From: an uncultured Verrucomicrobiota bacterium
Lineage (GTDB): Bacteria; Verrucomicrobiota; Verrucomicrobiia; Chthoniobacterales; JACTMZ01
Length of the DNA stretch: 64,000 bases
NCBI GenBank assembly: GCA_903953565.1
Contig: CAJBKE010000026.1
Location: 1-64,000, forward strand
Reading direction: 5' to 3'
How positions within the stretch are numbered: the stretch's first letter is position 1; every line of letters starts with the position of its first letter. The position numbers and the translations under genes are program-made. The notes under the pieces were generated by a model. The model ran no database searches. It was not told the origin of the DNA and saw nothing but the letters and a program-made list of their open reading frames with translations. Positions 2,526 through 6,623 of this stretch are shown here, piece by piece.

Positions 2526-4109
2526 ATGCGCAAATTCCTTCATCGGCAGCAGTTGGTGAAAAAAGGCCTAGCCTGCGGCAAGTCCCGCCGCACGGTCGAG
2601 GACAGCCCGTGGCGTGAAGCCTTGGCCTGCGGCTGGCTGCCGCGCGTCATCGTCTTCGCGCTCTTCGCCATCGGTCTCGGTTTCCTCATCTTCACTGGCG
2701 GACCCCAGGAAGAGCCGCTCAAGAAATACCTCATCTGCCTGCTTGTCTTCGGCATCTCGATCGCCCAGCTCTGGGTCAATCACCCGCAGGCCTTTTACCG
2801 CAACTCCAGCCTCGCGCTGATCTACGGCATCCTTCTCACCCAACTCGCCACGATCAAGGGCCTCCTAGTGCTGGCCGACACCGGCCGCATCGATCTGCAA
2901 GTCTTGCCGTTGCTCATTCCGTATGCGTTCGCACCGCTGGTTTTTTCCGTCTTGCTCGGACGTCACCTCGGGCTCTTCGGCGCCGTGGTGGCGAGTTTGT
3001 GGGGTGCGTTCTTGATGCCGGTCATCGACACCGTCTTTCTCGTTATCTCGCTCATTTCCGGCGTGGTCGCCGTGCTTTTCACCCTTCAAGTCCGCCGCCG
3101 CAGCCAACTCATCCGCGCCGGTCTTTATGTCGGCGTCGCCGTTTGGCTCCTCGCCGCCATGTTCGGGCAGATCGGGCCGCGCCTCATCACCGAGCCGCAA
3201 TTGACCGATTGGGGCATGGTCGGATGGCAAACCCTCGCCGCCTTCGGGATCGGCGTGGGCACCGCCATCCTGGTGAGCGGTATCCTGCCCGTGCTCGAGC
3301 ACATTTTCGGCATCACCACGGACATTTCGTGGTTGGAGTCCGCCGATCTCAATCACCCGCTGCTCAAGCGCATGACCCTCGAAGCGCCCGGCACTTACCA
3401 TCATAGCCTCGCCGTGGCCAACCTCGCCGAAGCCGGCGCCGAATCGATCGGGGCGAATCCGACGATTTGCCGCGTATGTGCCTACTTCCACGATATCGGC
3501 AAAATGGTGAAGCCGGAATATTTCACCGAGAACATGGCTGGCGGGGTCAATCCGCACGACGATCTCGCGCCGTCCATGAGTTCGCTCATCATCATTTCGC
3601 ACGTGAAGGAAGGCGTCGACCTCGGACTGAAAAACAAACTCAACGACTTGGTGATCGATGTCATTCGCGAGCACCATGGGAACTCGACGGTGCGCTTCTT
3701 TTACGAACGCGCCCAGCGGCAGGCCGAGGACGCACGGCTCGGCGGCAAGATCATGAACCTGCGCGCCGAGGATGTTCCGGCCGTGCAGGAGGAAAATTTC
3801 CGTTATCCCGGACCGAATCCGCAGACCAAGGAAAGCGGCATCATTTGTCTGGCCGATGCCGTGGAGAGCGCCTCGCGCAGCCTGAAGCGCCCTACTCCGC
3901 AACGCGTCGAGGACCTGGTCGATGAAGTCATCGAGCGCAAAATGGATGAAGGATTGCTCGACGAGTGTCCGCTGACCTTGGCCGATATCAAAAAGTTGTC
4001 CGCCAGCTTCCGCTTCACCCTCCTCAACATGATGCACAGCCGTATCGCCTACACGCAGGAAGAGGAGAAAGCGGACAAAGCCGAAGCCGAGGCCAAGGCG
4101 ACGGCTTGA
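2526..4109 (+). CDS. PgpH-like membrane HD-domain phosphohydrolase, short form
   Basis: Integral membrane protein with a cytosolic HD hydrolase domain, 527 residues. About seven hydrophobic segments occupy residues ~38-270. The HD domain follows, with [13 protein letters not shown] near residue 290, the metal-binding pair in YFHDIGK near 320, and IREHHG further on. The closest family is the 7TM-HD (PgpH/YqfF) group, which hydrolyses the second messenger c-di-AMP. Those proteins usually exceed 700 residues because of an N-terminal extracytoplasmic 7TMR-HDED domain, and that domain is absent here. The neighbour ybeY is the same one found beside pgpH in Firmicutes, which supports the assignment. 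The c-di-AMP substrate is inference. Confidence 0.85.
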
Positions 4110-4248: not shown

Positions 4249-4701
4249 ATGAGCACCACACCCGAGTTGGTTTGGTTGAACCGCCAGCGCGCGGTCTCTG
4301 CCCGCCAACTGCGGCTTCCCGCGGTGGCGGAAGCCGTGCAACGTGCTTGGCCCGACATCGCCGCGGCGGAACTCAAGGGCTCGGTCCTGCGCCGATTGCC
4401 TGAGATCTGCTTCGTTGTTGTTTCCGATGCGCGCATCGCCGCACTGCATGACGAGTTCATGCGCGATCCGACTCCGACCGATGTCATCACGTTCCATCAT
4501 GGTGAAATCGTGCTCAGTGCCGAGACGGCCCGCCGCGAAGCGCGGCAGCGCGGGCTGCCCTTGCCCGCGGAAATCGCCCGCTACGCCGTGCACGGACTTC
4601 TCCATCTCGCCGGCTGGTCGGACGGCGACTCCGGTGCGGCGGCGGACATGCGTTCCATACAGGAGAAAATTTTGCGCCGCGCGCTGCGCGGTTTGTGCTA
4701 A
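4249..4701 (+). CDS. ybeY: YbeY-type rRNA maturation endonuclease with altered metal site
   Basis: YbeY is a single-domain metal-dependent RNase that helps mature the 16S rRNA 3' end and takes part in ribosome quality control. The ATG at 4249 gives 150 residues, the family's usual size; an earlier in-frame codon at 4204 would add a run overlapping the repeat and is unlikely. The core matches the family: RDPTPTDVITFHHGEI, then ARYAVHGLLHLAGW. Zinc is normally held by three His in H-G-x-L-H-L-x-G-Y-D-H. Here His115 and His119 are present, but the third ligand position (125) is Asp, in GWSDGD. Asp can bind metal, so activity may be kept. Position beside the PgpH-like gene supports the call. Confidence 0.88.
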   Translation: MSTTPELVWLNRQRAVSARQLRLPAVAEAVQRAWPDIAAAELKGSVLRRLPEICFVVVSDARIAALHDEFMRDPTPTDVITFHHGEIVLSAETARREARQRGLPLPAEIARYAVHGLLHLAGWSDGDSGAAADMRSIQEKILRRALRGLC

Positions 4702-4709
4702 CTTCGGCC

Positions 4710-5309
4710 ATGCTTCGTCCCGTGCCCGTTGCCGATCCTGCGGCGGAAATCGCCGCATGGTGGCGCCTCGTGGAATTGTGCCTGCCCACGCACGAAAAAT
4801 GCGGCGCTTTGACTTTTGCCCCGTCGGGAACCGAGACGCTCGAGGGTGATTGGCAACGCTGGGTGACGGATGTGTTTTTGCCCGTCCTGCATCCGGCCCT
4901 TCTCTCTTTGCAAAATACCGCCGCCGCGCAGGATAGCGTCCGTTTGCTCTGCGAAGATGCCGCGCTCGGCGCCGCTCTGACTGCGGATGCGGCGCAGCGC
5001 AGCTTGCTCTCCGGGCGCCATCTCCTTCTTGCCTGCCAACCTCCCCAAGGGGCCAAGTTTCTCGAACGCTTGCGCGAAACGGCTCTGCATCGCACCGAAG
5101 CCGGACAACTCGCCACAATCTTCGCCGTCCGTGGTCAGATTTTCCATTTGCCCTTCGTGCAAGTGGCCGGCGCGTTGGTCCTGGCTGAATGCGTTTTGGG
5201 TGCCGATGCAGCGGGCGTCACCCTGCCCGCAGCAAGAACCATCGACCTGATGCAAGGCGCGATGGATTCCGTAGCCGCGGTTCCGTCTGTTCAGTTGCTG
5301 GCGGTATGA
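4710..5309 (+). CDS. unrecognised protein between ybeY and clpS
   Basis: A 199-residue product without a signal peptide or clear membrane segment. It is rich in Ala and Leu, with a Trp-rich start (AAWWRLVELC) and a helical C-terminal half. I recognise no family. The ATG at 4710 is preferred over one five codons upstream that overlaps the ybeY stop. The gene ends in an ATGA overlap with clpS, so its translation is probably coupled to clpS, and base composition matches its neighbours. A role tied to ribosome or protein quality control would be guesswork from position alone. Confidence 0.7.
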   Translation: MLRPVPVADPAAEIAAWWRLVELCLPTHEKCGALTFAPSGTETLEGDWQRWVTDVFLPVLHPALLSLQNTAAAQDSVRLLCEDAALGAALTADAAQRSLLSGRHLLLACQPPQGAKFLERLRETALHRTEAGQLATIFAVRGQIFHLPFVQVAGALVLAECVLGADAAGVTLPAARTIDLMQGAMDSVAAVPSVQLLAV

Positions 5310-6086: not shown

Positions 6087-6623
6087 ATGCCCGCGGCCGA
6101 GACCACCGAGGCCATCCTCCTGCGCCGGGCCCGTTTCGGCGAATCGAGCTACGTCCTCATTTGGCTCTCGCCCGAGCACGGAAAAATCCGCACCGCCGCG
6201 CGGGGCACGGCGCGCAAGGACAGCAAGCTGCGTGGCCGGCTTGATCTTTTTTATCACGCGGAAGTGCAATTCGCAGCCGGACGGAAATCGGATCTGCATG
6301 CGCTGCGCGAGTTGAAACTGCTCGAGACATGGGAAGGTCTGCGCGGGAACTACGGACGCCTCCTTGCCGCTTCGTATTTCGCCGAGTTGTGCGATCTTTT
6401 GTCCGAGCCTGCCCACGCCGCGCCGGGTTTGTTCGATCTCATGCGTCGCGCCCTCGGACACTTGTGTGACAACAACCCCTCTCGCCGTTCGCTGGAATTT
6501 TTCGAGTCCGAAGTCTGCCGCGTCCTTGGCTTTGGTCACGCCGGCAACGCACTCGGCGCGATCGAGGCCCACGCCGGACGTATTCCGGTCAATCGCCGGC
6601 GCTTGGCCGAAGTAATCGGCTAG
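6087..6623 (+). CDS. recO: RecO-type recombination mediator, short form
   Basis: RecO works with RecF and RecR to load RecA on SSB-coated single-stranded DNA. The N-terminal part reads as the RecO OB-fold: TTEAILLRRARFGESSYVLIWLSPEHGKI, then a basic ARGTARKDSKLRGRLDLF. A helical C-terminal part includes YFAELCDLL and SLEFFESEVCRVLGF. At 178 residues it is much shorter than the typical ~240, and the four-Cys zinc site found in many RecO proteins is not seen. The reading frame is intact and ends cleanly, so this looks like a compact variant rather than a broken gene. Confidence 0.82.
   Translation: MPAAETTEAILLRRARFGESSYVLIWLSPEHGKIRTAARGTARKDSKLRGRLDLFYHAEVQFAAGRKSDLHALRELKLLETWEGLRGNYGRLLAASYFAELCDLLSEPAHAAPGLFDLMRRALGHLCDNNPSRRSLEFFESEVCRVLGFGHAGNALGAIEAHAGRIPVNRRRLAEVIG

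Follow-up and report, generated by a model that had tools for sequence, protein, structure and literature searches.

Zinc is given as the metal of the YbeY proteins that have been studied (PMC6943124, PMC9895993). The three-His motif H-x3-H-x5-H is called characteristic of YbeY (PMC4047096), or diagnostic, in the literature, and each of the five YbeYs present in the PDB copy has His at the third place in alignments; a solved structure of a YbeY with Asp there (Asp type) is not among these five. In S. aureus YbeY, Arg58 is described as touching citrate, and RNA in a model (PMC9895993), and by alignment this residue corresponds to Arg59 of the E. coli protein. A second-shell role has been ascribed to Glu137 of E. 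coli YbeY (PMC4231759). In metzincins the third metal ligand is described as typically His and rarely Asp, the latter for example in the snapalysins and IgAse with a catalytic zinc (PMC12237041). In YfcM, which is YbeY-like, the metal is reported to be held by two His and one Glu at the same places (PMC4231759), and a YbeY-like fold thus tolerates a carboxylate.

The DNA analysed here (the window) is a stretch of 64,000 nucleotides from an uncultured Verrucomicrobiota bacterium of the order Chthoniobacterales (contig CAJBKE010000026.1, assembly GCA_903953565.1). One of its open reading frames (Table 1) is identified as ybeY because its product scores 76 bits against TIGR00043 (cut-off 45) and 69.7 bits against PF02130 (cut-off 25), both curated family cut-offs being passed. 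The product is the sole PF02130 match in the source genome, a 2.86-Mb assembly that is 95.68% complete. A model predicted from the window YbeY and 116 homologues has a mean pLDDT of 93.3 and adopts the YbeY fold; its best matches among solved folds are the YbeYs 1oz9 (Z 17.5), 7y7o (Z 16.7) and 1xm5 (Z 16.6), with an rmsd of 2.0 over 130 residues. Other zinc peptidases match the model by alignment at Z below 9, which we take as probably reflecting only a shared zincin-like arrangement.

Table 1. Coordinates of ybeY, its site residues and neighbouring features in the window
Feature	Position	Strand	Remarks
7TM-HD protein (PgpH/YqfF-like)	2526..4109	+	Pfam match; directly upstream of ybeY, common ybeY neighbour
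ybeY	4249..4701	+	ATG start, 150 aa, single copy in genome
H67	4447..4449	+	His in 54/54 in order; Asn in most bacteria
M71	4459..4461	+	Place of RNA-binding Arg59 (E. coli)/Arg58 (S. aureus), from alignment
Metal-site motif H115-x3-H119-x5-D125	4591..4623	+	HGLLHLAGWSD, from profile alignment
D125, GAC codon	4621..4623	+	Putative third metal ligand, place of E. coli YbeY His124
D127	4627..4629	+	Asp in 7/54 in order; unlikely ligand
Q138	4660..4662	+	Place of second-shell Glu137 of E. coli YbeY; Gln in 52/54 in order
ORF, 204 aa	4695-5309	+	Between ybeY and clpS; no Pfam or NCBIfam match
recO-like ORF	6087-6623	+	178 aa; RecO C-terminal domain match only to position 65 of 157

The codons at positions 4591-4629 read HGLLHLAGWSDGD and encode H115, H119, D125 and D127, exactly as the preliminary description had given them together with the motif HGLLHLAGWSD. 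The His triad H-x3-H-x5-H is thus absent from the window YbeY, its third residue being Asp, and the profile alignment places D125 with the third His of other YbeYs. The metzincin signature HExxHxxGxxD is absent as well, since Gly116 stands at the place of the catalytic Glu.

The order was sampled with 57 genomes including the source genome, and a YbeY match was found in 54 of them (those without a match are G005, G039 and G042). Two further frames, L055 and L056 (from G049 and G054), each of 125 amino acids with the sequence HEIGHLLGWDE, gave a weak second PF02130 match and were dropped from the set; they look like a small HExxH zincin-type peptidase, which we presume to be unrelated to YbeY. 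Thirteen positions are invariant in the 54 aligned YbeY sequences (H67, T77, D78, T81, F82, G85, E86, E108, H115, L118, H119, L120 and D125). H115, H119 and D125 are each kept in 54/54, and residues 123, 124, 126 and 127, which flank D125, vary widely. The constraint on D125 resembles that on the two His ligands, unlike that on a drifting residue, and such conservation speaks against a useless site as far as an alignment can tell. The preliminary description had pointed to a further Asp at position 127, which is present but is not conserved: Asp occurs there in just 7/54 order sequences, on which ground D127 was rejected as a ligand, and Thr is commoner (24/54).

All 53 order relatives that were read have His, His and Asp at the three ligand places, and within the same genus Asp was found in all 9 genomes with a YbeY match (10 searched). 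The sample of the phylum gave a YbeY match in 282/288 genomes and none in the other 6. Asp is the third ligand in 79/79 further phylum loci read, which comprise 29 of the 30 best-scoring loci (the 30th being already included), 20 from families that the first DNA pattern had reached poorly, and 30 of which most had low scores or split frames. As far as these loci were read, Asp is the normal state of YbeY in Verrucomicrobiota. An alignment of relatives from the phylum had been proposed as the check on D125, and the normal His that would have exposed a base error was found in none of the 53 order relatives or the 79 further loci. In some distant members of the phylum (L259, L261-L265, L267, L268 and L270-L272) HGxLHLxG is replaced by HGxDHLxG, with both His and the Asp kept.

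Beyond the phylum, genome contigs were scanned with a DNA pattern that accepts either His or Asp as the third residue and requires Met nine residues on. The scan returned at least 119 named loci and, as the pattern allows no third state, is silent on other residues. Read in frame, the 119 named matches listed comprise 30 Asp and 89 His, with phyla taken from the record titles. The profile alignment holds 117 of them (30 Asp, 87 His), L133 and L199, both His in frame, having been dropped as short frames. Among the matches listed, His and Asp are divided cleanly by phylum. Asp is found in 13/13 Bacteroidota, 5/5 Planctomycetota, 4/4 Verrucomicrobiota and 2/2 Armatimonadota, and in one locus each from Caldisericota, Omnitrophota, Poribacteria, Chlamydiota, Fidelibacterota and Lentisphaerota. 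His is found in all 15 Actinomycetota, 17 Bacillota, 2 Chloroflexota, 1 Acidobacteriota, 1 Mycoplasmatota and 3 unplaced loci and in all 47 Pseudomonadota scored; one more locus of the latter phylum, L099, is a fragment with His. The His-or-Asp pattern was present in 66 of 118 Bacteroidota genomes and missed the other 52, and a His-only pattern was present in 0. In 200 genomes of Pseudomonadota, to which the Asp-only pattern alone was applied, this pattern gave 0 matches.

Family searches that are independent of the third residue, in which each phylum takes its name from the named loci that served as centres, gave a match in 31/31 Bacteroidota genomes with Asp in 30/30 loci read (one match unread), and in 28/30 Planctomycetota genomes with Asp in 28/28 loci read. 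In Armatimonadota a match was found in 30/31 genomes, and the 30 loci read divide into 23 with Asp and 7 with His. The rarity of Asp at the third ligand place that the preliminary description implied is contradicted by these counts, Asp being normal in Verrucomicrobiota and several other phyla. Hence, the window YbeY is an ordinary variant of its lineage, neither a broken nor an odd gene, and nothing unusual is left in the window ybeY once its relatives are seen. A scan of viral contigs found no relative.

Trees were built without the ligand column, and the number and direction of switches they give are to be read with the shortness of the protein (134 to 137 columns) and many unresolved forks in mind. 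A quick tree of 116 rows, which took in a random 15 of the Pseudomonadota and only 12 rows from the order and 19 from the phylum, requires 7 state changes versus 38.6 for shuffled labels, the states being strongly clustered, and a single Asp clade is not rejected on it (p-AU 0.967). The best tree of Armatimonadota has 3 changes, and one His clade is not rejected (p-AU 0.113). In our best explanation the exchange of His and Asp would be ancient and largely fixed by phylum.

A substitute for the third His was sought in the alignment, and no column is generally His in the Asp type and non-His in the His type. The nearest candidate is alignment column 67 (not residue H67), which is His in 19/30 named Asp-type sequences among the matches listed and in 0/54 of the order. 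The window YbeY has five His, at positions 67, 83, 84, 115 and 119; of these, H67 was rejected as a substitute ligand because His at its place is rare in other Asp-type YbeYs. A nearby His taking over the ligand role, which had been raised as a possible outcome, therefore finds no candidate in the alignment. With D125 kept in 54/54 order sequences and Asp widely conserved, the two-His/one-Asp site that had been offered as one option is the best reading.

Besides the third His, the window YbeY lacks the conserved Arg that binds RNA (R59 in E. coli) and has M71 at its place. Among the named matches listed, Arg is present in 71/87 His-type versus 4/30 Asp-type rows, the 16/87 His-type rows without it including one gapped fragment. 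It is present in 1/54 order sequences, 0/30 Bacteroidota loci and 0/28 Planctomycetota loci. Judged from this loss, the RNase activity of the window YbeY may be reduced. Strict coupling of Asp to the loss of Arg was rejected. Among the matches listed, 14/15 His-type Actinomycetota are without Arg, and the loss is therefore not tied to Asp; 18/23 Asp-type Armatimonadota keep Arg, so that the Asp swap occurs inside an otherwise canonical site. In the Actinomycetota concerned (L091, L096, L103 and 11 others) the His triad is combined with Met in place of an Arg that has been described as highly conserved. The 30 Armatimonadota loci (L343-L372) comprise 7 with His and Arg, 18 with Asp and Arg, 5 with Asp and no Arg, and 0 with His and no Arg (Fisher p 0.30 for Asp versus Arg loss within the phylum). 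This series suggests, without proof, that the ligand changed first and Arg was lost later, and Armatimonadota offer a natural series for studying the exchange. Gln, as in Q138, is also common in His-type YbeYs at the place of Glu137 (29/87 among the named matches listed), and D73 stands at the place of E. coli K61, where Lys and Arg are absent. M71, D73 and Q138 extend the differences in the window site beyond the third ligand alone, which counts against the explanation that we propose below.

The neighbourhood of the window ybeY is an ordinary one for this gene. The 7TM-HD gene was detected by tblastn in 15/30 order loci with flanks of at most 1.5 kb and in 19/119 named loci among the matches listed, in His and Asp types alike, and genes for ClpS, DUF2017 and RecO lie downstream of ybeY. 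The frame at 4695-5309 has tblastn matches in 8/30 order loci with short flanks and in none of the other loci searched.

We propose that the window YbeY is probably a single, orthologous and functional member of a widespread Asp type with a two-His/one-Asp site, most likely for zinc. A single catalytic metal would be bound by H115 and H119 from the active-site helix and by D125 from the following loop. It would most likely be zinc, as in metzincins with Asp as third ligand. Like YbeYs elsewhere, the protein would contribute to maturation of the 30S subunit and of 16S rRNA. Metal binding by Asp, zinc as the metal and enzyme activity are what we infer beyond the observed sequence, family, predicted fold, conservation and distribution. 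There is next to no chance that Asp at position 125 stems from a sequencing or assembly error, a pseudogene or a paralogue that replaced the true YbeY. The codons CAC and GAC are one base apart, but the Asp in every relative read rules this reading out; in addition, the frame is open, the gene is single copy and a 7TM-HD gene lies upstream, as in many ybeY loci.

It is unlikely, in our view, that the Asp-type YbeY works chiefly in ribosome assembly and cuts RNA weakly or not at all, with a metal that is structural only and a loss of Arg that reflects relaxed catalysis. Arg is indeed absent in 26/30 named Asp-type loci among the matches listed, in 53/54 order sequences and in 30/30 Bacteroidota and 28/28 Planctomycetota loci, and H128A is reported to lower the activity of human YBEY yet to complement, as does an R55A-type change that severely impairs the RNase of bacterial YbeY (PMC7515705). 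Since variants of the third His and of Arg complement in spite of their lowered RNase activity, an Asp-type YbeY without Arg could serve assembly with little such activity. However, H115, H119 and D125 are strictly kept, beyond what a structural role need demand, and the His-type Actinomycetota without Arg (14/15 among the matches listed) and the Asp-type Armatimonadota with it (18/23) also tell against such a role, which we rate below that of an active zinc enzyme. A two-His/one-carboxylate site that prefers iron or manganese, or that serves a different reaction, as does the site of YfcM, a hydroxylase with the YbeY fold, is quite improbable. YfcM resembles YbeY, and its two-His/one-Glu motif has been proposed for Fe(II) (PMC4231759), but metzincins of the Asp type are reported still to bind zinc (PMC12237041), and, as the source genome has no YbeY match other than the Asp type, the latter must do the YbeY task, if the family does that task. 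Possible, if on the doubtful side, is the broader idea that YbeY exists in bacteria in two chemically distinct forms. The Asp type, which usually has neither the third His nor the RNA-binding Arg, may then use another metal or substrate contact or act in assembly without cutting RNA. If so, YbeY chemistry derived from His-type proteins would fail for much of bacterial diversity, and Asp-type proteins would be a natural test of whether the RNase activity of YbeY matters.

The deep split of a core enzyme between phylum groups with His and with Asp, the Asp side mostly without Arg, has apparently gone unremarked, and no paper on an Asp-type YbeY was recognised in searches of open-licence papers. 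In several large phyla, true YbeYs would be discarded by any screen that demands the His triad. As the Asp type is usually without the RNA-binding Arg, it bears on whether the ribosome needs the RNase activity of YbeY.

The His-triad YbeYs of E. coli (1xm5), S. aureus (7y7o) and A. aeolicus (1oz9) have in common with the window YbeY the fold, the first two His, the TDV segment, the G-E/D-I strand and the Met after the loop. The window YbeY differs from them in its third ligand, Asp, in the replacement of Arg by Met and of the second-shell Glu by Gln, and in a shorter loop before the G-E-I strand. With the Asp-type YbeYs of Bacteroidota, Planctomycetota, Chlamydiota and other Verrucomicrobiota it shares H-x3-H-x5-D and the Arg that is usually missing, although many other Asp-type YbeYs have a His two residues past the Arg position (19/30 named matches listed) that is found in 0/54 sequences of this order. 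The snapalysins and IgAse resemble the window YbeY in their two helix His, Gly, third-ligand Asp and downstream Met, but they are peptidases with a catalytic Glu in HExxH, whereas Gly follows the first His in the window YbeY. YfcM (EpmC), the EF-P hydroxylase, is described as having a partial YbeY-like fold and, like the window YbeY, a two-His/one-carboxylate site (PMC4231759). It differs in that its Glu ligand comes from another helix, its sequence similarity is low and it catalyses another reaction.
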